DNA of 64,000 nucleotides from Allocoleopsis franciscana PCC 7113 (GTDB lineage Bacteria > Cyanobacteriota > Cyanobacteriia > Cyanobacteriales > Coleofasciculaceae): assembly GCF_000317515.1 (NCBI RefSeq), contig NC_019738.1, positions 2,251,623-2,315,622 of the forward strand. The letters are read 5' to 3'. The notes below the pieces were generated by a model that did not search any database, was not told where the DNA came from, and was given only the letters and a program-made list of their open reading frames with translations. Positions 4,559 to 56,549 of this stretch are shown here, piece after piece (position 1 is the stretch's first letter; every line of letters begins with the position of its first letter). Position numbers and translations under genes: made by a program.

Positions 4559-5347
4559 TCAAGTACAAATCTGTAAAGGAACGGCTTGCTTCATTTCTTT
4601 GAGTGCATCCGTTAGTGCTGTCGAGGGATTTTCCACGCTGTAGATTTCCTGCAAGACATCTAACCAAAGCCGCTGTTCGGTAAAGTAATTAGCACGCTGC
4701 CTCGCGATCTCTTCGGGTGTGGCTTGTTGGGCTTGAAGTTGCTCGTCCAAACGCTGCAATTCCTGCTTAATGCGATCGCGCTTTTGGCTGTCCATGACTC
4801 GAAACTGTGTTGTCACCGGTTGAGAGAAACCGATGATCCTCCATTCATAAGTTTGACCGGGTTTGAGCGCCTCTTTGTCATACAAAACTTTGTTCTGATT
4901 CTGTTGGATATTGTGACTCCACAACGGCTTATCACTGCCGACTTGATAAAGTTCCACCCGAATCGGTCGTCCCGTCCAGACAAATAAGGGGCGATCGCTC
5001 CACATTTCTTTGTTGTTGCCCAGCGCAATGGGTGAGAGCAGACAGGGACCACGCGAACTCCCCTTTTTACTATCTTCAGCGGGCTGATTATCTTGTGCAA
5101 GAGGTTGCAAAATACGCGTCCAAGGATTGCTGCTCCGTAAGCTTCCCCGTGAACCTCCAGGTCTACCTTGCTCAGGAGCACTAGGATTAGTAGGAGGCGG
5201 ATTATCTTTGGTTTGAGCTTGAGCGACATTCTCCCCAGAACCGAAGAGATGGGTTTGTGCTCGGGTAGTTTGAGTTGAGTCAGTTAGCAAACTAGAAACC
5301 AGCGTCGTCACGAGCAAGGTTGATAACACCCAGTTAAACTTTGACAT
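4559..5347 (-). CDS. Secreted hypothetical protein of the CHASE2 operon (DUF928-like)
   Basis: 262 residues. An N-terminal signal peptide (hydrophobic residues 6-24, cleavage near TTRAQT) is followed by a Pro/Ser/Gly-rich linker (about 50-80). A beta-rich domain (about 100-180) has CLLSPIALGNNKEMWSDRPL and PGQTYEWRI, resembling the extracytoplasmic proteins that accompany CHASE2 proteins in cyanobacteria. The rest is a coiled-coil-like helical tail (about 185-230). The DUF928 assignment is from memory and not secure. The start codon overlaps the end of the CHAT-CHASE2 gene by 14 bp, which implies translational coupling and a shared pathway. It may be an extracytoplasmic ligand or partner of the CHASE2 sensor domain. 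Confidence 0.7.
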   Translation of the reverse strand: MSKFNWVLSTLLVTTLVSSLLTDSTQTTRAQTHLFGSGENVAQAQTKDNPPPTNPSAPEQGRPGGSRGSLRSSNPWTRILQPLAQDNQPAEDSKKGSSRGPCLLSPIALGNNKEMWSDRPLFVWTGRPIRVELYQVGSDKPLWSHNIQQNQNKVLYDKEALKPGQTYEWRIIGFSQPVTTQFRVMDSQKRDRIKQELQRLDEQLQAQQATPEEIARQRANYFTEQRLWLDVLQEIYSVENPSTALTDALKEMKQAVPLQICT

Positions 5348-7895
5348 GTTTTTTTCTCTCCAATTGAGCTAACAGAATATACGTCCAAAATGTTGCAGTC
5401 GGTACCACTAATGGCAACAGCACTTCTGCTGTGATGTAAAGCTGTAAACTAACGAGTCCATAAATAGCTGTGGCACTCGCCATAACTAACATCCATTTGC
5501 TCCTTCCTGAAGGAAAAACAAATAGCCTATACTTTTCTTTCCGCTGTCTGCTTCCCCCTTTATTGCCTTCTAGCGCCAATACCGCTCCTTTCCCCAACAG
5601 CGCAGCTAAGCCAAGAAGCCACAAATCGGGAATCGGAACCACCAGCCGTTGATTCAAGAAATGATGAATCATATAAGCGTGGGCTTCACCTCCTGTGAAT
5701 TTCTCACGCCCAGAGCCAGGATTCGCTTGAGAATGCCAGTAACCAAGCGCTGGCGGCATGGGGAAATTATCCTCGCCCAATTCAGTAACGCCAGCCTCGC
5801 TATATCCGCCTGGGGCAATCATCACCACTGGCTGGTGATTCGGGTGTTGGGGTAGGGAAGTGGCTGAACTCTCCAGAAACTTCCAAGCGGGTAGGGGTTG
5901 GTAGACGTGATCCGGCGGAATCGAGAAATCAATAATCGGGTGCATCCACATTTGACGTAACAGATAAGCAAAGTTAGTAATCGGATGTAAGCGAGCTTTG
6001 GGGGAGAATACATCCCGATAATCTTTGCCCGTGGTTTTGTAAGCATAGGTGCTCAGGGTTGAGTGCAAATCATTCGTAGATTGCAATTGGGGTTGAGGCA
6101 GCTTTTGGGATGAGGAAGTGTTCAGCCGAGAAGCCAACGCCAAAAGGTAAGAAAAGGGTATGCGCCGGGGATCAGACTTCTGCATCGGCACCAGCGTCAG
6201 ATGTTTGAGATGATTACCCAGAACCAGAATATCCCCTTGCAAGCTCCAATTGGGCTGGGCAAGTTCGGGCAAAACCTCAAACCAACCTCCCGTATCATTG
6301 GGTGTTGTGGCGAATACAAACCAGGTTCCCTGCTGTTCTACGGCGGAACGCAGCGACTGAGCGAGTTTGACATCGTTTTCCTTTTGGGTTTGAGGGCGAT
6401 CCAGCAAATAATCAACGCCGACGACTTTAGCTTTTAGTGCCGCCGCCTTGTCCACCAACTGTGCCAAATAGCGGCGATCCATGGGGACGGCAGGATAAGG
6501 AATTTTTGCCTTTTGCAGGGAGTCGTCGTCAATTTGTACCAGAAGCACAGGAGGCGGCTTGGGGGTTGGGACTTGATGAGTGAGTTGGCGATACATCGCT
6601 TGGACTAACACCCGTCGCTCTAATAAATTGCCTTGTATGGGTAGCTGCCAACTCAGTAAGACGAAGGCGGTTAAAGCGATCGCTTCTTTTGGGGTGGGTA
6701 GCCAGCGCGTGAGGATTTCCTTAATACCAAAGGGTTTCAGACGAAACTGAGGGGCATCAGGATGGCGAAATAAAGACGGAATCAGGTAAGCACTGGGATA
6801 AGTCAGGTGTTTATCTAACTTGAGATACTGACACGCCGTGAGCATCGCCTCGTGGACATCTTTGTACTGGGCGAGACGCTGGAGAAACCGCAGGAGAAAT
6901 TCTTGGGCAACGTTATTGTGAATCGGTTCTCGCATGATCGCCACCTGACTCAACCCTAAGCTAATCAGGGCATTGGCAATGTCGAGTCCGTTGCAGGAGT
7001 TAAATAGGGCAAATTGCAATCCCCGTTCTTTGGCAAGTAACAGCGACTGTTCAATTTCGTTGAGGAATAGGGAGAAACCGGGAGCAATCCCTAATTTCCC
7101 CCCAATTAAATCCGCTTCATTACTGTGACCGGCAAACAGTAACACATCCCAGCCCTGTTCATCTGCGATCGTCTCAATAATTTGGGCTTTAAGTTCGCCT
7201 ACATCCTGTCCCGGTTGCCAGCCGACAAAGTGAACGTCTGCGATGGACTTGAGCGATCGCACTGCTTCTTTATCCGCTTTAAAATCTAACCCCGTATCAT
7301 CCCCCAAAATCGCTAAAATCCTCGTCCGACGACGGCGACTCTGGGGCTGTATGGCTTTTTCGTGAATATTGGGAGGCATACGGACAATCCGAATTTGACT
7401 CGGACGTGCAAACTCAGTCCCAATTTCCCAGGCTTCCCAGGGTAACCGTGCCAAATCTAAGGGATTGCAGGTGAGGAAAACCTCAACAAACGGTGAATTC
7501 TGTGCTTTTTCTCCCTCTGCATTTCTCCCATCCTGGTATGAGTTTCGGTTTCCCTCACTCACTGATTGAGCTATAGTCGAGCGAATGTCAAATAACTCAC
7601 CCTGACGCAGCCAATGATGAAATTCATAGAGTAACTTGGCTTCAGATTGTACGAGTTTAGCGTGCCAATCCACCGGGGGGGGAGCAATCGTGCCGTTTTC
7701 CGCAACTCTCCCCCGTAAACTGGTTTGATAAAAATTGAGATAATCCGTTCTCCACTCTTCGTAGAGTGTGGTAAGCGTTTCCGGGTAGGGAAGCGTCACG
7801 TTGAGTTGCTGTCCTTGTCCCCAAGACAACTCAAATAGACAAAATTGCTCGATTCGTTGAACTTTGAGGTAGAAAACGGCAGCACTTTGGCTCAT
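5334..7895 (-). CDS. Membrane protein with CHAT caspase-like domain and CHASE2 sensor
   Basis: 853 residues. Residues 1-180 have no recognised domain. The CHAT domain spans about 190-380, with the catalytic His-Cys pair visible as FAGHSNE (His257) and FNSCNG (Cys301). A first membrane helix lies around 403-420. A CHASE2-type extracytoplasmic sensor (about 425-730) contains VLLVQIDDDSL and AKVVGVDYLLDRP. Two or three C-terminal membrane helices (from about 735) end in the cytoplasm. CHAT domains are caspase/gingipain-related cysteine peptidases; CHASE2 senses unknown external signals. An architecture in which an external signal controls a cytoplasmic protease is plausible (inference). It overlaps the secreted-protein gene downstream and follows TPR, DUF1822 and sigma-like genes on the same strand. 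Confidence 0.88.
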   Translation of the reverse strand: MSQSAAVFYLKVQRIEQFCLFELSWGQGQQLNVTLPYPETLTTLYEEWRTDYLNFYQTSLRGRVAENGTIAPPPVDWHAKLVQSEAKLLYEFHHWLRQGELFDIRSTIAQSVSEGNRNSYQDGRNAEGEKAQNSPFVEVFLTCNPLDLARLPWEAWEIGTEFARPSQIRIVRMPPNIHEKAIQPQSRRRRTRILAILGDDTGLDFKADKEAVRSLKSIADVHFVGWQPGQDVGELKAQIIETIADEQGWDVLLFAGHSNEADLIGGKLGIAPGFSLFLNEIEQSLLLAKERGLQFALFNSCNGLDIANALISLGLSQVAIMREPIHNNVAQEFLLRFLQRLAQYKDVHEAMLTACQYLKLDKHLTYPSAYLIPSLFRHPDAPQFRLKPFGIKEILTRWLPTPKEAIALTAFVLLSWQLPIQGNLLERRVLVQAMYRQLTHQVPTPKPPPVLLVQIDDDSLQKAKIPYPAVPMDRRYLAQLVDKAAALKAKVVGVDYLLDRPQTQKENDVKLAQSLRSAVEQQGTWFVFATTPNDTGGWFEVLPELAQPNWSLQGDILVLGNHLKHLTLVPMQKSDPRRIPFSYLLALASRLNTSSSQKLPQPQLQSTNDLHSTLSTYAYKTTGKDYRDVFSPKARLHPITNFAYLLRQMWMHPIIDFSIPPDHVYQPLPAWKFLESSATSLPQHPNHQPVVMIAPGGYSEAGVTELGEDNFPMPPALGYWHSQANPGSGREKFTGGEAHAYMIHHFLNQRLVVPIPDLWLLGLAALLGKGAVLALEGNKGGSRQRKEKYRLFVFPSGRSKWMLVMASATAIYGLVSLQLYITAEVLLPLVVPTATFWTYILLAQLERKKHVKV

Positions 7896-8208
7896 ATCAA
7901 TGTAAGGTTGGGGATGAGATGATTAACGATGCACCCTTTTCCAAAAAATTGTTTCAGTCTTTTCTCAATGAATCACAATTCAAAATTTTAAACTAAAGTT
8001 GAATTTGGGATTTTAACGGTTCTTCTGTCCTATATCAATCATGAATTATCAGTAGAGCAATTGTGTTCAGGCTGAGATGGGAATACATGGGTCTAATCCT
8101 CTATCAACTGGAAAGCCGATGGCGTACTCATCTTTCATCTTTATATCTCTCAGCCATATAGGACTTATGCAAAAGTTCTAGCTCAAAGCGCCAGCCCCAA
8201 CCGATTTC
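7896..8208. other. Intergenic region inside the CHAT-CHASE2 block
   Basis: 313 bp between the TPR gene and the CHAT-CHASE2 gene. I see no gene and no strong terminator. The gap is long enough for an internal promoter, so the CHAT-CHASE2/secreted-protein pair may also be transcribed on its own. Confidence 0.4.
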
Positions 8209-9537
8209 TTAATGGTTTTGGTTAAAAAAATTGCAAATCGCTTCTTCACAGGCATTTTCACCGAAAGTTTTAATAATCTCTTGAGCCTCCTGGTAGCACT
8301 TCACGCCTTGAGCCTGTAAACCTAGACGCTCATAGACACTGACTAAATTCTGTAGTAGCTTAGCGATCGCCACTGTATCATCGAGAAATCGATCAATCCT
8401 AGCGGTGTAATTATAAGCTTGCAAAATCCCTAACGCTTGTAAGTGATACCACACAGCACGAGCAGGATGACCCATCTTGTAGTGAACAGCTGCAATGTAA
8501 TCAATGGTTCTCGCTTCAGCACTCGGTAAATCACCCACCTCTCGCCGAATTTCCCAGACTTGCTGATACAGTTCCATCGCTTGTTGATCTTGGTTGAGAC
8601 GGACGTAAGTTGTCGCAATACTCTCTAGAACCTTGGCTTCACTCTTGCGGTTACTGAGTTTTTGGTAATTTGTCAACGCTTGCTCAAAGAATGCCAATGC
8701 CTGACGATATCGCTTCATCTGCAAATAAATTTCCCCAATATTGTGCAGGGCAGTCCCTTCTCTATCAAGGGAATTTCCTAAGTCTTGAAATTCTTCTAGG
8801 GCTTGACGAGAACACGACAGTGCTTGCTCCAACTGACCTAAACTGTTGTAAACGGCTCCTAGATGATTGAGTAAAAGGGCGATACCTGCCTTGTTCCCAA
8901 TATGCTTAAAAATCTCTAAAGCTCGTAAATAAACCTTCAGTGCCTTGTATTCTTGACCGGTTTGGCGATAAGCGGCTCCCAAGTAATTGAGAATCACACC
9001 AACGAGCACATGATTTTCTAGAGATTGAGCCAATTGCAAAGATTGTTTTAGGCAATTAATGCCCCAAGCGTGTTCTCCAAGTTTGCAGTGAATAATCCCG
9101 ATGCGTTTGATGATGTTAACTTGGTTCGCCCGGTTATTTTTCCCTTGGGCGATGGTTAAAGCTTGTTGCAATGTCTTGAGGGTAGCTTGTAGCTGATTAG
9201 AATGATCCTGTCGCTCAATCGGTTGGGGAAGTCCTAGATTTTCTGGGCTTGAGCTTCCCTGACTCAGTAATTCTCTCGGAACGAGGGCATTTGTTGTGTG
9301 CGGCGCTGTGGGATGCCCAATGGTTGACTTTGTACCCAACGTTGATGGTAAACTCGATGCCCTGTCGTGGCTAACGGGATGCCTTTTGGCACTCTCCTCG
9401 TAGGAGCTTCGCTTTGAGTGATGATGTTGACCCCATTGAGAGCGATCGCTGTCCGATGAAGTGCGGTAGAATTCTTCACCCTGTTCATAGTGTTGTCCGA
9501 ATTTCGTTTCAGCTTGATGATCAAGACAAGATTGCAT
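8209..9537 (-). CDS. TPR repeat protein
   Basis: About 442 residues from the ATG at 9537; an in-frame TTG at 9543 is also possible, and GGGAG lies about 10 nt before the ATG. The first 105 residues are polar, Ser/His-rich and probably disordered. From about 110 to 430 there are seven or eight tetratricopeptide repeats, with motifs such as GVILNYLGAAYRQTGQEYKA and ALHNIGEIYLQMKRYRQALA. TPR solenoids bind peptides or partner proteins. Lying between the DUF1822 gene and the CHAT-CHASE2 gene, it probably acts as an adaptor or as a substrate of the CHAT protease (inference). No enzymatic domain is visible. Confidence 0.85.
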   Translation of the reverse strand: MQSCLDHQAETKFGQHYEQGEEFYRTSSDSDRSQWGQHHHSKRSSYEESAKRHPVSHDRASSLPSTLGTKSTIGHPTAPHTTNALVPRELLSQGSSSPENLGLPQPIERQDHSNQLQATLKTLQQALTIAQGKNNRANQVNIIKRIGIIHCKLGEHAWGINCLKQSLQLAQSLENHVLVGVILNYLGAAYRQTGQEYKALKVYLRALEIFKHIGNKAGIALLLNHLGAVYNSLGQLEQALSCSRQALEEFQDLGNSLDREGTALHNIGEIYLQMKRYRQALAFFEQALTNYQKLSNRKSEAKVLESIATTYVRLNQDQQAMELYQQVWEIRREVGDLPSAEARTIDYIAAVHYKMGHPARAVWYHLQALGILQAYNYTARIDRFLDDTVAIAKLLQNLVSVYERLGLQAQGVKCYQEAQEIIKTFGENACEEAICNFFNQNH

Positions 9538-9695
9538 GGTCAAAGTTCTCCCTCATTTTGGACTCAATTGGGTATACCTCTGACCTTTGAAAGGATATGC
9601 ACTTGTAGTGGCAGTAGATCCCTGACAAAAGCCGATTTTTCTTCCCTAGTAGAATACTTATCTGCTTTTTATCAGCCATTTATGCAAGCTGTCGA

Positions 9696-11048
9696 TTAAT
9701 CTTGGGGATTAAAACTAAAGGGGGGTAAGGTCTGCTCGATCCCGGATGGTAAGCTGACAGTGACGATAAACTTCTCATCCCAAGTCCCCACAACACGGGT
9801 AAAGAAATAGGAATTACGCGGTTGTGAATCCAACATCCGTTCTACCAAAATGCCCGTTTGGTCGCTGACTCGTAATTGCACACCTGTGGGTAGATGAGTG
9901 CCTGGAGTCGCCCCTAACACGAGTAATAACGTCCATTCAGGAATCGAGCCAGAGAGCAAAGGCCATGTGACAGCATAAAGGCGTAAGGGCATTCCCGCTA
10001 ACCGCAAATCCCGATAAGCGCCCCGCGCTTCTAGAGGAATCTCGACCTGCGTCTGCCGTAGTTGGGTGACAATGTCTTGAAATTCCTCCACTGGCGATCG
10101 CATCGTTCTGATGGGAGCCAAGCTGGGTAGCAGCACCCACGACAATTCTTGTGCCAATTCATCGAGTTCACCTAATAACCATCGTCCAGCATTCAGGGCG
10201 GGTTGGGTAACCATTTGCAGCGTGTCGGCAAGGTGTTTTTTGATCGCGGTGAGCGGCTCAGGTTGTCCGGCTGGCTGTTGTAATTGATACACCCAGTTCA
10301 GTAACTCCGGATTCGTGAGAACGAGCGCACCCTGTTCCCAGGTCAAAACCTGCCACAACTGGCGATCGGATGATTGTAAATTAGGCAACAAAGCTTCTAG
10401 TTCCGAACGCTTACGTGCTAATTGCATGGAGCGTTGATTGACGCTTTCTGGCAAGGGAATGGCGGTGGGTTCTAGACAGCGCAAATTCAGTAACAAACGG
10501 TCGGGATTGTGCTCAAACCAGTTTAAAGGAACTTGATAAGTCCAGTCTTCTTCGGCCTCTAAATCATGTTGTTTGCGTTGGTTCAATAACTGTTGGTAAG
10601 ATAAGAAACCTTGCACAACGGCAATTTCTTGTTCTTCTTGCACTTCTACCAAAACATAGAAGTGTGCCACAAATTCCGGTAAATCTACAACCGCTCTAGG
10701 CACAGTGACTTCTTCATCCGTGAAGCTACCCATGGCAATCAGGCAAAGTTTAAATTGACCCACTTGCAAATGGCTCACGGCATCAATTGCATTTGCCATA
10801 AACGGCTGTAAAAGAGTGCATTGTTTTTTATTCAGAGTCAAGTCTGTGGCACGGGATTCCAACCATTCCTCAAAACCGCCGAGTGCCAGCGCGTTGAGAT
10901 AAGTTTGCCACTGCCGTTCTTCATCGGGAATTTGAGCACTCAAGTTTAACGCTTGGTCAACAACATCAGGTGATAAGTTGATGGCTTCGGTGGGCAAAAC
11001 ATCAAAATCAGGCAACATTTGGGCAGTACGATTTGAGAAATTAGTCAT
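9696..11048 (-). CDS. DUF1822 family protein
   Basis: About 450 residues from the ATG at 11048. This start is favoured over the upstream in-frame one (11093) by AGGAG 9 nt before it and by the short overlap with the stop codon of the sigma-like gene (11041-11048). The N-terminus has LPDFDVLPTEAINLSPDVVD, and further on WQTYLNALALGGFEEWL, typical of the cyanobacterial DUF1822 family. The C-terminus has an all-beta stretch with WTLLLVLGATPGTHLPTGV and QLRVSDQTGILVER. The function is unknown. From family knowledge, DUF1822 genes repeatedly lie next to sigma-70-like genes in cyanobacteria, and this overlap fits a functional pair. Confidence 0.85.
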   Translation of the reverse strand: MTNFSNRTAQMLPDFDVLPTEAINLSPDVVDQALNLSAQIPDEERQWQTYLNALALGGFEEWLESRATDLTLNKKQCTLLQPFMANAIDAVSHLQVGQFKLCLIAMGSFTDEEVTVPRAVVDLPEFVAHFYVLVEVQEEQEIAVVQGFLSYQQLLNQRKQHDLEAEEDWTYQVPLNWFEHNPDRLLLNLRCLEPTAIPLPESVNQRSMQLARKRSELEALLPNLQSSDRQLWQVLTWEQGALVLTNPELLNWVYQLQQPAGQPEPLTAIKKHLADTLQMVTQPALNAGRWLLGELDELAQELSWVLLPSLAPIRTMRSPVEEFQDIVTQLRQTQVEIPLEARGAYRDLRLAGMPLRLYAVTWPLLSGSIPEWTLLLVLGATPGTHLPTGVQLRVSDQTGILVERMLDSQPRNSYFFTRVVGTWDEKFIVTVSLPSGIEQTLPPFSFNPQD

Positions 11049-12498
11049 TGTTAGAGCTCCTAGTATCGAGGTAGAGGCAGAGTCTCTCCGCAAAGAGACT
11101 TGTGGTGGTCGTTTGGTTTTTGGTGCCAGTGGCGGTAGAAGCTTCCGTTGCCGCTTCTTGGATAAGCTGAGTCACTTGTTCGTCGAGAGCCTCTTCAAGC
11201 TGCTTACTAAGAGCATTGAGGCGTTCCGGATCAGTGTAGATTTTGGCTTGTTCGATCACGCGATCGCGTAATAAGACGAGGAACTGCTGTTGAATATCGG
11301 CACGGAACGATTTCAACTGCAACAACCTTGAGACATGAAATTGAGCTTGTAAATTTACGGCTTTGGCAATGTCCCCCATTGACTTTCCCTGGCAGTGAAA
11401 CAATTGCAAGGCCGTGAGAAAATTTTTGGCTTTCTGGGGGTTTTTGTGGTGTAATTTCCCGGCTTTATCTTCAGTGACTTTGGCGATCGCTTGGTCTAAG
11501 CAAGTGATGAATTGTTGACGGTAAGAGAGTAAAAACTCAGTTTGTTCGTCAGTGGTGTTTCGGTCATCGATAAAGTCACGGAACCAAGTTCGATCGGCTG
11601 AAGCATTACTATTAACAGGGGCGTCCATAGATTCTGTAGGAAGAGAGCCACCTCGAACATGAATTCGGTAATCTCTGAGCATCGACGCCATTTCTTGGAG
11701 TTTTGCCATGATGGTTTCGGGGCGAAACCGCTCTCCGGTTTGAGTCAATAGGCGCATTTGCATTTGTTCGAGTTGTTCCCTAGTGGGTGGCAGGCACTGT
11801 CCCTTGATTCCCTGTTGTCGTGATTGGAGGCGTTGCGCCCGATAGACGGCATGGTAGCTATCTAGAAGTTGTTTGGACTGCTCAATTTCAAACGATGTTA
11901 GTTGATGAAACTGCAAAAAAATTCGCTGAATTTGTTTGGAATTGGTATCGTTGAGAATTGCCCAATCACTGACGAGATAAACGCCGTGTTCGAGTAAAAA
12001 AGTATTGAGTTCTCGATGATGTTTTACCAACCGGGTTGTCCAGGTGCCTAAACTGCTTTGCTCTGGATTAAAGCTTTGCAGGATTTCCTGGGGTAGAGAT
12101 TGATAAGAAGTCGAGACGGCAGGAGTCGTATTTCTCCTCAATCGGCGGCTGTCGTCATCTAAGACACAACGTAGTAAATCGTTACAGGTGAAGCCGTGTT
12201 CCGTGCCAAACTGCGCTTCCAATTGCAGGCAAACACGCTCGATTTGGATAGAGATAAAGCATAAAAGACAAAGTTCTGATAAAAAACGCTTACTGGTATC
12301 GTTAGTTTTGAGTTCAGTAGTTTCTCGCATCCAATGCAGCAGTTGACGCTGGATCAGCGCATCCGGCACTTCGCTTTCAGGCGTAAATTCCGGAAATGAA
12401 GCTAAGAAAAACGTCTTTACGGAGGGAATTTCCTCGATTTTGCGTTTTCCAGCCGCCTCAATTTTTACAATTGTCCAGTATCTCGATGCAGCACTCAT
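11041..12498 (-). CDS. Sigma-70-like regulatory protein, cyanobacterial type
   Basis: 485 residues. The middle part (about 170-250) has HGVYLVSDWAILNDTNSKQI and SYHAVYRAQRLQ, which recur in cyanobacterial proteins annotated as sigma-70 family. Residues about 365-410 form a sigma region-4-like helix-turn-helix: FHCQGKSMGDIAKAVNLQ followed by VSRLLQLKSFRADI. A clear sigma region 2 is not obvious, so it may be a divergent sigma factor or a DNA-binding relative. It is the first gene of the minus-strand block and overlaps DUF1822 by 8 bp. A transcription-factor-like protein heading an operon with a membrane sensor suggests autoregulation. No conserved promoter was identified. Confidence 0.75.
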   Translation of the reverse strand: MSAASRYWTIVKIEAAGKRKIEEIPSVKTFFLASFPEFTPESEVPDALIQRQLLHWMRETTELKTNDTSKRFLSELCLLCFISIQIERVCLQLEAQFGTEHGFTCNDLLRCVLDDDSRRLRRNTTPAVSTSYQSLPQEILQSFNPEQSSLGTWTTRLVKHHRELNTFLLEHGVYLVSDWAILNDTNSKQIQRIFLQFHQLTSFEIEQSKQLLDSYHAVYRAQRLQSRQQGIKGQCLPPTREQLEQMQMRLLTQTGERFRPETIMAKLQEMASMLRDYRIHVRGGSLPTESMDAPVNSNASADRTWFRDFIDDRNTTDEQTEFLLSYRQQFITCLDQAIAKVTEDKAGKLHHKNPQKAKNFLTALQLFHCQGKSMGDIAKAVNLQAQFHVSRLLQLKSFRADIQQQFLVLLRDRVIEQAKIYTDPERLNALSKQLEEALDEQVTQLIQEAATEASTATGTKNQTTTTSLFAERLCLYLDTRSSNND

Positions 12499-12916
12499 TG
12501 CAATTTAATCGGGTGACAGATCATCTAGTATCACTACTGAACCGTATCTTTAAGCAAGGCTCGAATCAGCGAGTAACTTGCTACTGAAGGCTGAGTGATT
12601 GATGCTCTCCTCGTCCTGAAGTAAGAAACAATTCTCAACCTTAGCTTTCCCTTTCACTTGTTTCACCTCCCTTAGACTGGATTTAATGGCTGAGTTGGCA
12701 TAAGAGTTTGTTCTCTCACTGATATCTAACTCTGAACCGGGTTACCTTATGCAGCTAAGCAGGTGCTGACTGGCAGAAATAATCTACTAGTTCTTTTGTT
12801 GATTTTTCTCCCCCCACTCCCCAGCACCCCAGCACCCACTGCCCCAATTTGCATAACCTTGCCGTCCACAGAGAGATAGGTAAGTAGATAGGTAAAACAA
12901 TGGGTACGAGGTAGCT
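12499..12916. other. Intergenic region upstream of the sigma-like operon
   Basis: About 420 bp that should contain the minus-strand promoter of the sigma/DUF1822 operon. It holds a C-rich low-complexity run near 12808-12845 and a partial copy of the 927-963 repeat near 12770. No gene was recognised. Confidence 0.4.
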
Positions 12917-40960: not shown

Positions 40961-43900
40961 TTACGAGATGTCGTCTCTCATCTGTTGTACTCTGGCGATA
41001 ATTTGCCTCACTGTCTCAGCGCCAGGTGATTGGAGACGCTGCAATATCTCCAACGATTGCTGCAAATAATTCAATCCGGTGTTAAAGTCGCCTTTCTCGT
41101 CGGCTAACAACTGCCCTAGCATGGCTAATGTCGCTGCCTTGCCTTGGGCATTACCGATACGTTCAGTGATTTCCAACGATTGCTGATAAAGTGCGATCGC
41201 CTCTTCGATTTCTCCTGTGTTGGCTTTGAGTCTCGCCAGTTGGTGCAACGTCGCTGCCTTGGTTTGGGCATTACCGATACGTTCAGTGATTTCCAACGAT
41301 TGCTGATAAAGTGCGATCGCCTCTTCGATTTGTCCAGTGTTGGCTTTGAGACTCGCCAGACAGTGCAACGTCGCTGCCTTGCCTTGGGCATTACCGATAC
41401 GTTCAGTGATTTCCAACGATTGCTGATAAAGTGCGATCGCCTCTTCGATTTCTCCTGTGTTGGCTTTGAGTCTCGCCAGTTGGTGCAACGTCGCTGCCTT
41501 GGTTTGGGCATTACCGATACGTTCAGTGATTTCCAACGATTGCTGATAAAGTGCGATCGCTTGTTCGATTTCTCCCGTGTTGGCTTTGAGACTCGCCAGT
41601 TGGTGCAACGTCGCTGCCTTGCCTTGGGCATTACCGATACCTTCTTCGATATCCAACGATTGCTGATAAAGTGCGATCGCCTCTTCGATTTCTCCCGTGT
41701 TGGCTTTGAGTATCGCCAGACAGTGCAACGTCGCTGCCTTGCCTTGGGCATCACCGATACGTTCTTTGATTTCCAACGATTGCTGATAAAGTGCGATCGC
41801 CTCTTCGATTTCTCCCGTGTTGGCTTTGAGTATCGCCAGTTGGTGCAACGTCGCTGCCTTGCCTTGGGCATTACCGATACCTTCTTCGATATCCAACGAT
41901 TGCTGATAAAGTGCGATCGCCTCTTCGATTTCTCCCGTGTTGGCTTTGAGTATCGCCAGACAGTGCAACGTCGCTGCCTTGCCTTGGGCATCACCGATAC
42001 GTTCTTTGATTTCCAACGATTGCTGATAAAGTGCGATCGCCTCTTCGATTTCTCCAGAGTTGGCTTTGAGTATCGCCAGATTGTGAATAATGGCTGACTT
42101 CTCTTTTTCGTCGTCTTGAGGGCAGCTATCTAGGGCTTGTTGATAATGGGTTTGTGCTTGACTCACCTCACCCAATTCTTTCTCAGATCGAGCCAACCCA
42201 TGCAGCACTCGGTAATCTTCAGCGATTTCTAGAGTGGCTTGGCACAACTCAACGGCTTCCCGAAATCGGCTTTGATTAACCCATCGCCATGCGAGAGTAT
42301 CTGCTATTTCTACAGCAATCGTTTCCACCTTCCCCCGCAACGCCAAGCGATGAATTTCTAGCCGTTGTTCCTCGGTTGAAGTTTCTGCCTCCTCCCACCA
42401 GAGACGATACAGCACCTCAGCCGCTTGCTGATGCAACCTCTCCCCCAACCCCTCTCCTGCAAGGAGAGGGGAGAAAGAGGAATCTGACTCCCCCTTCCCT
42501 CGTAGGGAAGGGGGTTGGGGGGTTAGGTTTTTCTCCAAAATGCGCGGCACTCGTAGCGACTGATCAGGACTTACTTCCAACAATCCCAACGCCACTGCCC
42601 GATTAATCTGCCGTTCGAGATTAGGAGTTTCTTCACAAACTGCGGCTATTGCCTCCCTCGGTACTGGCAACTCAAACACCAATCCCCGCCGTAATATCTC
42701 CTCTAGCGTTGGATCGATCTGTTCCAGCAGCGCTTTTGCCAAAACTTTCTCCCGCAACTCCACTGGATTCGTTTCCAAACCCTGTAAAATCTCCGCCACT
42801 GTTTTCTTTTCCCCCTGTTGAGAACCCCCCCAACCCCCCTTATCAAGGGGGGAGAAATCTCTGGCTTCCCCCTTATCAAGGGGGGAGAAATCTCTGGCTT
42901 CCCCCTTATCAAGGGGGACGGGAGGGGGTTCTAAATTCAGCAGCACCTTATCCAACCATTCCAATAACCGAGGATTCCCATCCGCCAATCTGGTTGCTTG
43001 AGACTGTAACGCCTCATCCACCTGAGATTTCGCATCAAAGGCAGAGAGACGACTACACTTTTTTCGCAAATCCGCCCCCCGCAATCCCTCCATTGGTTGC
43101 TTGTAGAAATCCTGCAACAGGGTGGACTCAAAATCGTAACGGCAGGTAAGGATTAAACGGTGAGGCGCGGAAGTATCCTCAATAGCCCAGACTAACGCCT
43201 CCAATACCCTTGCCGCTTCCGGTTGCAGCACATACCCACCATCGCGAGGTTCCAGATTCGCTTCAAAATCATCCAGCACCAGCAAAAAGGGCTTTGCCGC
43301 CCCGTCTTCCAACTGCCGAAACACCCGCCGCAGGCGAAACTTCAACTCCTCCTTGTCATCCTGTAACGCTTCCCGCAGTTCCCGACTATCCAACGCCGCC
43401 GCTAACTTATTTACCAGACTGGGTTCATCGACTCTCCCCACCCAGACAATCCGCTCAAATTCCGGGAGTCTGTCGCACAACCTTGCGGCTAAACTACTCT
43501 TACCCAAACCCCCCATGCCATGAATCAACACCCCCACTCCTTCTATGTTCCCCCCTTGATAAGGGGGGCTAGGGGGGTTCTTCAATGCCCGCAAGCAATT
43601 TTGCAACTGACGGCGACGCCCGATAAAACTGCCACGAGTCGGGACTTTTACCTTACCAGCCGGATCTAAAAACCGTTCGGCAACTGAAGGCTTGGGTGCA
43701 GGTTTCCGTCCAAGAGTCAGCAACGGCGTCACCAACCCCCCCGGTAACGTTTCCGCCACGTACAACCGCAACAAATGCCAATCCCTGGCTTTATTCTCAA
43801 TCAACTTCTGGTACGTCAGGGCAACTGCCTCCGTCACCGACTTCCCCGCCGCCAACCCTTTATACAATGCTGCTGCTGCCGCCCTCGCATCCGTATCTAA

Positions 43901-44764
43901 AACCGGCTGTCCCCAACCCAAAACCAAATTTGCTCCAGCTTGCAGCAACTCCTCTGCCATCGACGGCACCGCCCCCGCATCGCCAGCTTGCCCCGTGCGA
44001 CACCCAGAGAGGAAAATCAGTTTGGGTAATTGGAATTGCAGTTCGGTAGCAATATCCCTCGCACTGGCAAGGTACAGTTCCCCGGTTTCCGTCTCGGTAT
44101 AAAATCTTGCTCCCTCCTCCGTAATCGTCGCATGACCCGTCAGGTGCAAGATATCAAAAAACCCCTTCCCCCGATCCTCAGCTAAATAGCCCAACTCGGT
44201 CAAGCAGCCACTTTCTTCCACCGTCAGCGATAAAGGTTTCCGCGCCGTCGCTTCCAGGATTAGTGCCTCCTCCCGTTCAAACTCCAGCACGGGTTCCACC
44301 CCTAACGGAGAGGTTGCCATAAACAAAACATTCAGCGCCCGATTTTCCGGTTTCGCCTCTACGGACAATTTTTTCCCGGTATCCGATGCTACCCACCGCA
44401 CGGGAACTACCCCAGGCAATCTCTCCAGCAAAAAGCCCTTGCCATCATGCAGCAACTCCCAAGGCAAGTGAGCGAGTTTTTCCGCCGCTTTAATCGCTAA
44501 AACAATCCCTTCCCGCCAATATCGGTCAATTGCTTGTTGGAGAAGGCGATCGCTGCCATCTAACCAGTTATACAGTTTTCGCCCAGTTATGGTATAGTTA
44601 ACAGCCAAGCGAACGTAGTAGTCTTGTTCTGCTAACTGAATCAGGTCTGCGATTTCCCCCAGAGGAAGCGATCGCTTCTCGTACTGGTTGGGATTGTCCC
44701 AGAAATAACGCAGCTCTACGTAATTATCCGCGACGGGCTTGAGGTCGAGGTGGAGCGTCTTCAC
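40961..44764 (-). CDS. CHAT protease - STAND NTPase - TPR protein (NLR-like)
   Basis: 1267 residues, GTG start at 44764. The N-terminal CHAT domain (about 135-345) has the catalytic His in LHLTGHATI (His211) and Cys in FLSGCRTGQ (Cys255). The NB-ARC/STAND NTPase (about 375-680) has SFIGRRRQL, Walker A HGMGGLGKS (415-423), Walker B FLLVLDDF (493-500) and a sensor-1-like LILTCRYDF. A winged-helix-like linker follows. The C-terminus (about 860-1240) is a TPR array of eight near-identical 40-residue units plus degenerate ends. The overall plan is that of NLR proteins with a caspase-like effector. It overlaps the small EACC1-like gene by 41 bp and precedes a nuclease gene by 47 bp. Repeat-derived peptides interrupt it at three sites. 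It is probably an activation-by-sensing conflict protein (inference). Confidence 0.88.
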   Translation of the reverse strand: MKTLHLDLKPVADNYVELRYFWDNPNQYEKRSLPLGEIADLIQLAEQDYYVRLAVNYTITGRKLYNWLDGSDRLLQQAIDRYWREGIVLAIKAAEKLAHLPWELLHDGKGFLLERLPGVVPVRWVASDTGKKLSVEAKPENRALNVLFMATSPLGVEPVLEFEREEALILEATARKPLSLTVEESGCLTELGYLAEDRGKGFFDILHLTGHATITEEGARFYTETETGELYLASARDIATELQFQLPKLIFLSGCRTGQAGDAGAVPSMAEELLQAGANLVLGWGQPVLDTDARAAAAALYKGLAAGKSVTEAVALTYQKLIENKARDWHLLRLYVAETLPGGLVTPLLTLGRKPAPKPSVAERFLDPAGKVKVPTRGSFIGRRRQLQNCLRALKNPPSPPYQGGNIEGVGVLIHGMGGLGKSSLAARLCDRLPEFERIVWVGRVDEPSLVNKLAAALDSRELREALQDDKEELKFRLRRVFRQLEDGAAKPFLLVLDDFEANLEPRDGGYVLQPEAARVLEALVWAIEDTSAPHRLILTCRYDFESTLLQDFYKQPMEGLRGADLRKKCSRLSAFDAKSQVDEALQSQATRLADGNPRLLEWLDKVLLNLEPPPVPLDKGEARDFSPLDKGEARDFSPLDKGGWGGSQQGEKKTVAEILQGLETNPVELREKVLAKALLEQIDPTLEEILRRGLVFELPVPREAIAAVCEETPNLERQINRAVALGLLEVSPDQSLRVPRILEKNLTPQPPSLRGKGESDSSFSPLLAGEGLGERLHQQAAEVLYRLWWEEAETSTEEQRLEIHRLALRGKVETIAVEIADTLAWRWVNQSRFREAVELCQATLEIAEDYRVLHGLARSEKELGEVSQAQTHYQQALDSCPQDDEKEKSAIIHNLAILKANSGEIEEAIALYQQSLEIKERIGDAQGKAATLHCLAILKANTGEIEEAIALYQQSLDIEEGIGNAQGKAATLHQLAILKANTGEIEEAIALYQQSLEIKERIGDAQGKAATLHCLAILKANTGEIEEAIALYQQSLDIEEGIGNAQGKAATLHQLASLKANTGEIEQAIALYQQSLEITERIGNAQTKAATLHQLARLKANTGEIEEAIALYQQSLEITERIGNAQGKAATLHCLASLKANTGQIEEAIALYQQSLEITERIGNAQTKAATLHQLARLKANTGEIEEAIALYQQSLEITERIGNAQGKAATLAMLGQLLADEKGDFNTGLNYLQQSLEILQRLQSPGAETVRQIIARVQQMRDDIS
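41131..42090 (-). repeat. Eight tandem 120-bp repeats encoding TPR units
   Basis: Eight consecutive 120-bp units, about 90-98% identical by eye, each encoding one 40-residue TPR of the type LHxLAxLKANTGEIEEAIAL followed by YQQSLEI. Variation is limited to a few codons: the third residue (H/N/C/Q alternate), 'I/S/R' in LA(I/S/R)L, and EIKERIGDAQ, DIEEGIGNAQ or EITERIGNAQ. Each unit contains one HIP1 octamer GCGATCGC at the same place. Units 2-3 and 4-5 (counting from the N-terminal end) share paired features that suggest a 240-bp duplication. The array is subject to length change by recombination. Confidence 0.95.
42435..42527. repeat. Intergenic-type hairpin repeats inside the CHAT/STAND/TPR gene
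   Basis: Two hairpins, CCTCTCCTGCAAGGAGAGG and CCCCCTTCCCTCGTAGGGAAGGGGG-like (the second about 42489-42513), plus spacer, sit in frame and encode a Leu/Gly/Glu/Pro-rich peptide (TPQPPSLRGKGE, LLAGEGLGE). Such hairpins normally lie between genes in cyanobacteria (compare 47439-47460). They lie at the boundary between NTPase and TPR regions. Confidence 0.8.
42835..42918. repeat. Triple 33-bp repeat inside the CHAT/STAND/TPR gene
   Basis: Two full copies (42835-42867 and 42868-42900) and a partial third (42901-42918) of a 33-bp unit whose palindromic core is CCCCCTTATCAAGGGGG. It encodes SPLDKGEARDF repeated in frame. The 33-bp length keeps the reading frame. Confidence 0.9.
43550..43580. repeat. 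Palindromic repeat insertion inside the CHAT/STAND/TPR gene
   Basis: CCCCCCTTGATAAGGGGGG plus a GGCTAGGGGGGTT tail, in frame, encodes NPPSPPYQGGN just before the Walker A motif. It is of the same palindrome class as 42835-42918. Confidence 0.75.
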
Positions 44765-55260: not shown

Positions 55261-55439
55261 TCCCAATTCCCATTTATGTAAAGCTGCATAAGTTACCTGC
55301 ACTCAGAGATAGGCAAGAGCAAGTAAAAGCTAAACATAACCAGGTCATGTCTTCACGATATGTTACTATCGATGAATTTTTTCATGATTTAACTGGGATT
55401 AGCCGAAAATACGGTTGGATCAGAAAAGCCAAAAAACCT

Positions 55440-56549
55440 ATGCAGAAACTCTCTCGGATTTTATTCGCTATAACTCTAACCTTAAGCATCTTGGGTTTTC
55501 CCACTCAAGCTTTTGCTAAAACTAAAATTCAAATGGCCATCCTTTTAGACTCTAGTAATAGTATGGATGGACTGATTGACCAGACTCGGACTCAACTTTG
55601 GCAAATTGTTAATTATTTAACTCAAGTCAGCAAAGATGGCGAAGTCCCCGAATTAGAAGTAGCTCTCTACCATTATGGCAACGATAATTTACCCTCCTCC
55701 GAAGGGTTTGTTAGGCTCTTAACAGGATTTACTCCTGAATTAGATTTAGTTTCCGAAAAGCTCTTTAGTATCCGAACGAACGGTGGTCAAGAATATGCGG
55801 GTTGGGCAATGCGCTCAGCTATGCGAGAATTAAACTGGAGTAAAGACAAGGAAGATTTTCGCGTTATTTTTATTGCCGGTAATGAACCCTTCGATCAAGG
55901 CCCGATACCTTGGAGAGAATCCGTTGCTCTTGCGGTTAAGGGAAATACTTTCGTTAATACTATCTACTGTGGTTCAGCAGAAAGTCAGGAACGACAACTT
56001 TGGGCTGAAGGCGCTTCTTTAGCACAAGGAAGTCACTTCAATATTAACCAAAACGAAAAAGTTGAATTTATTAAGTCTCCTTATGATGAGCAAATAGCAG
56101 CTTGGAATGCCAAACTCAATCAAACCTATATTCCCTATGGGGCACAAGGAGAAGTAGGACAACAACGTCAGGTCATTGAAGATAGTAACTCTGGCGTCAA
56201 TTTGGCGACACGGGGTGGTTCCAAGGCTTCGAGATATTATAACAATGCTTCTTGGGACTTGATTGATGCTATCAATGAGGGAAGAGTTACCCTTGAGCAA
56301 TTACCTAATGAGGCTTTGCCATTAGCTATGCAGGGTATGACTTTAGCTCAAAAACAAGAATATGTAGCGGCAAAGAAAGCTGAAAGAGAGACTATTCAAA
56401 AAATGATTCGTGATTTATCTCAAAAGCGGAGCGAATATGTGGAAAAACAGCGCCTTTTGAGTGCCAATAGTGGCAAGAATACTCTTGATTCCGTCATCAT
56501 TCAAAGTCTGAGCCAACAATTAGCGGCTAAAGGATTTAAAGTTCGGTAG
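55440..56549 (+). CDS. Exported VWA-domain protein
   Basis: 369 residues from the ATG at 55440, chosen because it starts a good signal peptide (LSRILFAITLTLSILGFPTQ, cleaved near AFA). An in-frame ATG at 55347 would add 31 residues ahead of the signal; neither has a strong ribosome binding site. The von Willebrand factor A domain (about 30-210) begins IQMAILLDSSNSMDGLIDQT (MIDAS DxSxS, with Asp-Ser-Ser-Asn-Ser). The C-terminal part is helical (AERETIQKMIRDLSQKRSEY). VWA proteins bind metals and partners outside the cell. It is not linked to an obvious operon. Confidence 0.8.
   Translation: MQKLSRILFAITLTLSILGFPTQAFAKTKIQMAILLDSSNSMDGLIDQTRTQLWQIVNYLTQVSKDGEVPELEVALYHYGNDNLPSSEGFVRLLTGFTPELDLVSEKLFSIRTNGGQEYAGWAMRSAMRELNWSKDKEDFRVIFIAGNEPFDQGPIPWRESVALAVKGNTFVNTIYCGSAESQERQLWAEGASLAQGSHFNINQNEKVEFIKSPYDEQIAAWNAKLNQTYIPYGAQGEVGQQRQVIEDSNSGVNLATRGGSKASRYYNNASWDLIDAINEGRVTLEQLPNEALPLAMQGMTLAQKQEYVAAKKAERETIQKMIRDLSQKRSEYVEKQRLLSANSGKNTLDSVIIQSLSQQLAAKGFKVR

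Follow-up and report, generated by a model that had tools for sequence, protein, structure and literature searches.

The closest known counterpart of the gene set studied here is that of Kaur et al. 2021 (eLife, PMC8195603), who report an EACC2-caspase encoded with an ECF sigma factor and a DUF1822 protein, in some cases with CHASE2, and propose a pathway of sensing, autopeptidase activation, and sigma-mediated response. Because that set is so closely related to ours, the core of the system is already known. The middle steps of such a pathway have a precedent in Csx29, a CHAT protease whose substrate Csx30 is a sigma inhibitor (PMC10028731), and one CHASE2/DUF928 gene cluster was noted earlier in Nostoc punctiforme (PMC5587647).

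Here, we analyzed a locus in a 64,000-nucleotide stretch of DNA (the window, meaning the whole stretch) that encodes a long sigma-like protein, called SIG below, a DUF1822 protein, and a CHAT-CHASE2 receptor-protease. The best explanation for the locus, in which we place slightly better than even confidence, is a transmembrane protease-gated sigma circuit. CHASE2, with an exported DUF928 protein as its periplasmic partner, would sense an envelope or extracellular cue, and the signal would activate the cytoplasmic CHAT protease at the N terminus of the same polypeptide. CHAT would then cleave DUF1822, the proposed anti-sigma factor or adaptor keeping SIG inactive, and the released SIG would direct RNA polymerase to TGMATAAG-N12/13-AGANNTA promoters. 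It would thereby transcribe from its own promoter, from that of the receptor operon wherever this operon is unlinked from SIG, and from those of a group of exported proteases that includes TPR-CHAT and caspase C14 proteins. The computations establish which genes make up the set, their order and co-inheritance, the likeness of the SIG model to sigma factors, the element with its linkage to SIG, and a candidate regulon; binding of the element by SIG itself, the roles of DUF1822 as inhibitor and substrate and of DUF928 as sensor partner, and the signal are inferences. The original prediction for this DNA had sketched a signal outside, a protease inside, and release of a transcription factor; as an outline, this fits the anatomy of the encoded proteins and matches the proposal of Kaur et al. 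2021 (PMC8195603).

Five genes in two probable transcription units

The five minus-strand ORFs that had been proposed as a single operon are all present. SIG (11041..12498, 485 amino acids) has a sigma2-like fold at residues 15-172 and a helix-turn-helix (HTH)/sigma4-like region at ~315-421. It is followed by the DUF1822 protein (9696..11048, 450 amino acids; PF08852, E=2e-59), a TPR protein (8209..9543, 444 amino acids; TPR_12, E=6e-39), the CHAT-CHASE2 receptor-protease (5334..7895, 853 amino acids; Pfam CHAT and CHASE2, a conserved dyad, and hydropathy), and a divergent DUF928 protein with a signal peptide (4559..5347; Pfam DUF928 at 19.6 bits, plus profiles). The predicted tight spacing holds at the two ends, with an 8-bp SIG/DUF1822 overlap when DUF1822 starts at the ATG at 11048 and a 14-bp overlap between CHAT-CHASE2 and the last gene, and fails around the TPR gene, where the gaps are 152 and 313 bp. 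A second promoter-like element, at 8144-8171, precedes CHAT-CHASE2. Because the CHAT operon has this element of its own, one five-gene transcript is doubtful, and the window probably contains two transcription units with a common promoter class. Generic sigma-70 promoter and terminator matches around the genes were no better than chance and were not used.

The TPR protein had been cast as an adaptor of the system. Only 7 of 75 comparable loci have a TPR gene at this position, behind DUF1822 and ahead of CHAT, and the only clear orthologue is in a same-genus genome (82%). We therefore reject it as a component; the gene is probably a lineage-specific insertion and not a core part.

A conserved four-gene cassette

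The remaining four genes, encoding SIG, DUF1822, CHAT-CHASE2, and the divergent DUF928 protein, are a conserved cyanobacterial signalling cassette. Profiles built here served to annotate two sets of loci, one from 20 genomes of the same family and the other, of 79 loci, from a scan across a wide range of genomes. Since the loci were picked by similarity to the CHAT part, the counts that follow describe cassettes of this kind and not an unbiased census: DUF1822 comes after 81 of the 88 sigma-like genes with room downstream (overlapping in 40 of the 81), and DUF928 follows CHAT-CHASE2 in 72 of the 89 genes with room (overlapping in 47 of the 72). The median gap from DUF1822 to CHAT in the annotated loci is 42 bp. 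The recurrence of DUF1822, sigma-like, and CHASE2 genes named in the original prediction was right, and the neighbourhood statistics that had been suggested as a check show clustering far beyond chance.

The cassette is also inherited as a unit. Distance matrices of SIG, DUF1822, CHAT, and DUF928 are congruent (r 0.80-0.90; 0/2000 permutations, with a largest permuted value of 0.23), although species relatedness inflates such tree correlations. Three paralogous cassettes in each of four same-genus genomes hold together: for each core protein, identity is at least 76% within a cassette type between species and at most 48% between the cassettes of one genome. Cassettes number one to three per genome and are inherited like a stable signalling unit.

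The genome that contains the window, of ~8 Mb, has four DUF1822 loci. Two of the others are ordered ECF-type sigma, DUF1822, CHAT-CHASE2, DUF928. Another (L026) has a sigma-like gene, DUF1822, CHAT fused to Peripla_BP_6, and a kinase-like gene; here, a ligand-binding Peripla_BP_6 domain stands in place of CHASE2 behind CHAT (L026:9282-11792, plus strand), the kinase-like gene is next, and an N13 copy of the promoter-like element overlaps the start of the sigma-like gene.

In close relatives the cassette can be split, with SIG-DUF1822 on one contig and CHAT-CHASE2-DUF928 on another; a TPR gene adjoins the split SIG-DUF1822 module in three cases. On splitting, SIG keeps DUF1822 and CHASE2 keeps DUF928. 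From this split and the adjacency of CHASE2 and DUF928, we infer two partnerships: DUF928 with the CHASE2 sensor on the periplasmic side, and DUF1822 directly with SIG. One locus (L216, G019:C43) carries SIG and DUF1822 in a single 558-amino-acid ORF, with short CHAT and CHASE2 remnants behind it. We dropped this fusion as interaction evidence, since it is part of a decayed cassette.

The CHAT-CHASE2 receptor and its DUF928 neighbour

CHAT in the window protein scores 24.9 bits against the Pfam cut-off of 24, and CHASE2 matches with E=6e-18. CHASE2 spans residues 412-766, and C-terminal transmembrane helices give hydropathy peaks at 751-843. The predicted catalytic residues are intact: the window protein has both His257 and Cys301, and of 117 aligned relatives 106 keep the His and 112 the Cys. 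A conserved N-terminal region precedes CHAT in the four paralogues.

The last gene had been called simply a secreted protein, and its family was missed. Its match to Pfam DUF928 (PF06051), at 19.6 bits, is under the curated cut-off of 26; with iterative profiles, all 112 of 112 matches of the secreted-protein profile fall inside the 138 matches of the DUF928 profile. By these profile matches, the protein is a divergent DUF928 member. The divergent family has two invariant Cys residues, and a PDB sequence search with the DUF928 profile gave only weak, unrelated matches. In the window's genome, 11 of 15 DUF928 genes lie less than 3 kb from a CHASE2 gene, where random placement would give 0.24; the corresponding count in a second genome is 10 of 14. 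DUF928 accompanies CHASE2 receptors with several outputs, namely cyclase, TIR, and CHAT, a pattern consistent with a predicted role at the periplasmic side of the sensor.

DUF1822 as a putative inhibitor of SIG

The AF2 model of DUF1822 (pLDDT 90) combines an alpha/beta portion with a helical portion and an Ig-like sandwich. It contains no TPR solenoid, whereas Kaur et al. (PMC8195603) call DUF1822 a TPR protein. The protein is soluble by hydropathy and does not resemble a known anti-sigma factor; a PDB sequence search with its profile returned weak, unrelated matches and no sequence link to Csx30. We propose DUF1822 as the anti-sigma factor or adaptor of SIG. A nuclease reading of its N terminus was also considered, from a match to D212 (PD-(D/E)XK-like; Z 7.3 over 132 residues); because this match is below trust level, we make no nuclease claim.

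SIG appears to be a very divergent sigma-like protein

None of 39 SIG family members matches a Pfam sigma domain (Sigma70_r2 or Sigma70_r4), and Pfam, NCBIfam, and PADLOC gave no credible match for SIG. The sigma resemblance comes from its AF2 model, which is helical (pLDDT 86.5). Foldseek placed mostly sigma factors at the top, with weak E-values, and in VIA the best 50 rows were all (50/50) primary or alternative sigma factors (sigma70/A/B/S), with a top Z of 8.0. For a helical protein, VIA values of 7-8 are in the tool's "possibly only a common arrangement" range; since a Z near 8 is modest for such a protein, the fold by itself is suggestive only. Residues 15-172 superpose on sigma70 region 2 (112 residues at 4.2 A), and full-length superpositions on sigma factors have an rmsd near 20 A. 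The SIG profile is separate from that of the ECF-type proteins of sister loci: only 18 columns align, covering the FNPEQSSLGTW motif and a few residues after it. PDB sequence searches with the SIG and ECF-type profiles gave only weak, unrelated matches. On the strength of the model, SIG appears to be a very divergent sigma-like protein.

SIG could instead be an activator or repressor whose HTH binds the element upstream of ordinary promoters, with the rest of the circuit as proposed above. The missing Pfam sigma domain in all 39 members and the modest structural Z values are what this reading would lead one to expect, and the HTH region alone could bind DNA. Set against it are the matches of both the sigma2-like and the sigma4-like parts to sigma factors and, as described below, the form of the element itself. 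We regard it as unlikely, at roughly one chance in five.

SIG homologues also occur in other arrangements. Two same-genus genomes encode one fused to the C terminus of an AAA_35 STAND-like ATPase (L027:10868-13735 and L215:12588-15476, both plus strand); these homologues are 66-68% identical to the window SIG and lie adjacent to a LuxR-TIR-AAA_35 gene. The middle part of SIG (~162-286, with a WAILND motif) is found alone as a small protein at L027:2818-3300, L215:4879-5358, and L217:6053-6520 (minus strand). These stand-alone genes sit just upstream of AAA_35 genes, of which those in L027 and L217 bear the promoter-like element.

A bipartite promoter-like element linked to SIG

The element, TGMATAAG-N12/13-AGANNTA, is 27-28 bp long. 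It is non-palindromic and bipartite with near-fixed spacing, like a -35/-10 pair, which argues for a sigma factor over an activator or repressor. The original prediction included neither this element nor its candidate regulon. In its N12/13 form it has three copies in the window, where shuffles give 0.01. Copy 1, TGCATAAG-N12-AGAGTTA (12727..12753, minus strand), is 228 bp upstream of SIG; copy 2, TGCATAAG-N13-AGAGATA (8144..8171, minus strand), is 248 bp upstream of CHAT-CHASE2 and is kept in the same-genus genome and in unlinked relatives; copy 3 (55285..55311, plus strand) is 35 bp upstream of a gene for a vWA-like exported protein. An additional N14 copy at 12850-12878 (plus strand) points away from SIG with no ORF behind it, possibly marking a small RNA; it is conserved in the same-genus genome (L063:1204).

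When the DNA upstream of SIG was aligned within the window clade, TGCATAAG-N12-AGAGTTA was exact or nearly so in 11 of 11 loci. Across the family, 29 of 71 SIG upstream regions contain TG[AC]ATA[AG]-N13-A[GC][ACT]NNTA, which is the N12 element with the count shifted by one base; the spacing hardly varies, and shuffles give 0.06. The remaining 42 regions do not match the element in this form. Since part of these data also served to define the pattern, loci of more distant SIGs provide a fairer test. Upstream of other genes it was found before 0 of 14 ECF-type, 1 of 105 CHAT, 1 of 95 DUF1822, 0 of 83 DUF928, and 25 of 447 other ORFs. The last count is itself above chance, and many of the ORFs concerned lie nearby and code for a caspase, for TPR proteins, or for RTX-like proteins.

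The element also marks receptors that have separated from SIG. Among 94 CHAT-CHASE2 genes, it lies within 450 bp of none of the 63 directly after DUF1822 and of 9 of the 31 that are not (Fisher 1.9e-5), a comparison in which a 250-bp cut was picked once the data had been seen. In three loci (L110, L114, and L115), it precedes a TPR gene running into CHAT. A receptor unlinked from SIG thus often carries a promoter-like element of this class, which is what control of both by SIG would predict.

We sought SIG and the strict form of the element, TGMATAAG-N12-AGANATA, in 117 cyanobacterial genomes. The strict element was present in 13 of the 30 genomes with SIG and in 1 of the 87 without it (Fisher 2.3e-8, a genome correlation that species relatedness also inflates); 17 of the 30 SIG genomes lacked it. 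One of the 13 (G113) is probably a chance case, having a weak SIG match and equal control matches. In addition, the base at position 3, C or A, is the same in the element before SIG as in further copies at that locus in 22 of 23 comparisons. This agreement fits a DNA-binding protein changing with its sites, and lineage may explain part of it. SIG recognition-helix residues 385/387/397 are strongly linked to C or A at position 3; because the A-type SIGs look like one related group, we did not take this link as proof.

These distributions bear on a further alternative, that another regulator reads the element, with SIG among its targets and the cassette feeding a different output. A conserved element upstream of SIG indicates control of SIG and does not alone imply autoregulation, and the 17 SIG genomes lacking the strict element accord with such an arrangement. 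The single occurrence among 87 genomes without SIG speaks against it, as do the ECF-type cassettes, which are without the element, and the change of position 3 with SIG lineage, in which phylogeny is a confounder. We consider it improbable, somewhat more so than a role for SIG as an activator or repressor.

Candidate regulon

Under our preferred reading, in which SIG would act as the sigma factor for this element, genes behind other copies are candidate targets. The window's genome has 30 sites at no more than two mismatches, against 7 for the reversed pattern, and 13 of its 15 strict sites have an ORF on the same strand no more than 150 bp downstream, where 3% would be expected at random. The genes behind these sites, some of which are at one or two mismatches, encode five TPR-CHAT proteins, a C14 caspase with DUF4384, a WD40 protein, an AAA_35 protein, a sulfatase, an ABC ATPase, a pilin-like protein, and the vWA-like protein; a subtilase gene has a weak site. 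The vWA-like exported protein (55347..56549, plus strand, 400 amino acids) has no Pfam match and was assigned by its motif ILLDSSNSMDG. Export of candidate targets was judged by eye from N-terminal sequences. In other families, genes behind the element encode TPR-CHAT, RTX, and trypsin-like proteins (G040), a caspase together with TPR-CHAT proteins (G022), a caspase (Nodosilinea, L138), and TPR-CHAT proteins (L132 and L133).

In G040, the SIG cassette is surrounded by an array of RTX genes and genes for TPR or TPR-CHAT proteins, of which many have the element in front (L319-L320, G040:C1:1384500-1421000); the array is an apparent target island. The window also encodes a CHAT-AAA_16-TPR protein of 1267 amino acids (40961-44764, minus strand), with no element ahead of its gene.

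The presence of caspase and TPR-CHAT proteins among the candidate targets would also suit a conflict or cell-death device in which CHAT is the effector, a suicide protease, and SIG-DUF1822 an accessory raising expression. Kaur et al. 2021 (PMC8195603) place EACC2-caspase systems among immunity and apoptosis systems, and the window's genome has a TIR-CHASE2 protein with its own DUF928. PADLOC models, on the other hand, match none of SIG, DUF1822, and CHAT-CHASE2, and stable inheritance as a unit of one to three per genome with congruent trees is likewise against such a device, to which we give about one chance in ten. The TIR-CHASE2 membrane protein (L018, C1:3795402-3797581) is a possible conflict-type relative of the receptor.

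Returning to the protease-gated circuit, its fullest form is that SIG represents a new sigma factor family with its own promoter class, switched on by a membrane caspase-like protease and inducing exported caspase-like proteases. To this combined claim we assign a little less than an even chance.

Comparison with known systems

If this fullest form of the circuit is real, filamentous cyanobacteria would use a two-step proteolytic cascade with a transcriptional relay. The system bears on CHASE2 ligands, on DUF928 and DUF1822, and on the roles of many cyanobacterial CHAT and caspase-like proteins. DUF928 gains a specific predicted partner, and the defined element with its named candidate targets makes the output of the system directly measurable.

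Four points are new as far as the literature searched shows: a sigma-like component, SIG, that Pfam does not see; the rule for DUF928; the element; and the candidate regulon. The system resembles the EACC2-caspase systems of PMC8195603 in having a conserved N-terminal region, the possible counterpart of their alpha+beta EACC2 domain, followed by a caspase-like domain and a variable C terminus that can include CHASE2, and in its sigma-like and DUF1822 gene neighbours. It differs in its SIG, which is long (~485 amino acids), escapes Pfam, and forms a family apart from the ECF-type proteins of sister loci; the available text of that paper also contains neither DUF928 nor the element nor a regulon of this kind. 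With respect to DUF928, a single cluster was noted in PMC5587647, whereas here its association with CHASE2 is a genome-wide rule across cyclase, TIR, and CHAT outputs.

Two better-known pathways offer mechanistic parallels. In Craspase/CASP (TPR-CHAT Csx29, Csx30, and CASP-sigma; PMC10028731), a CHAT protease relieves sigma inhibition, and by analogy we propose the same here. The proposed trigger is a membrane CHASE2 receptor and not RNA-guided Cas7-11. Because none of the five genes encodes Cas7-11 and the CHAT domain is part of a CHASE2 protein in place of a TPR-CHAT Csx29, the system may work like Craspase (type III-E CASP) but is not a member, and it offers a membrane-gated counterpart to the Craspase CHAT-to-sigma switch. 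The proposed order of envelope signal, anti-sigma proteolysis, and sigma release is that of DegS/RseA/RpoE (cited in PMC10028731). Unlike that pathway, the present one would combine receptor and protease in one polypeptide, with CHAT as the protease and a DUF1822 protein, soluble by its hydropathy, as the proposed anti-sigma substrate.
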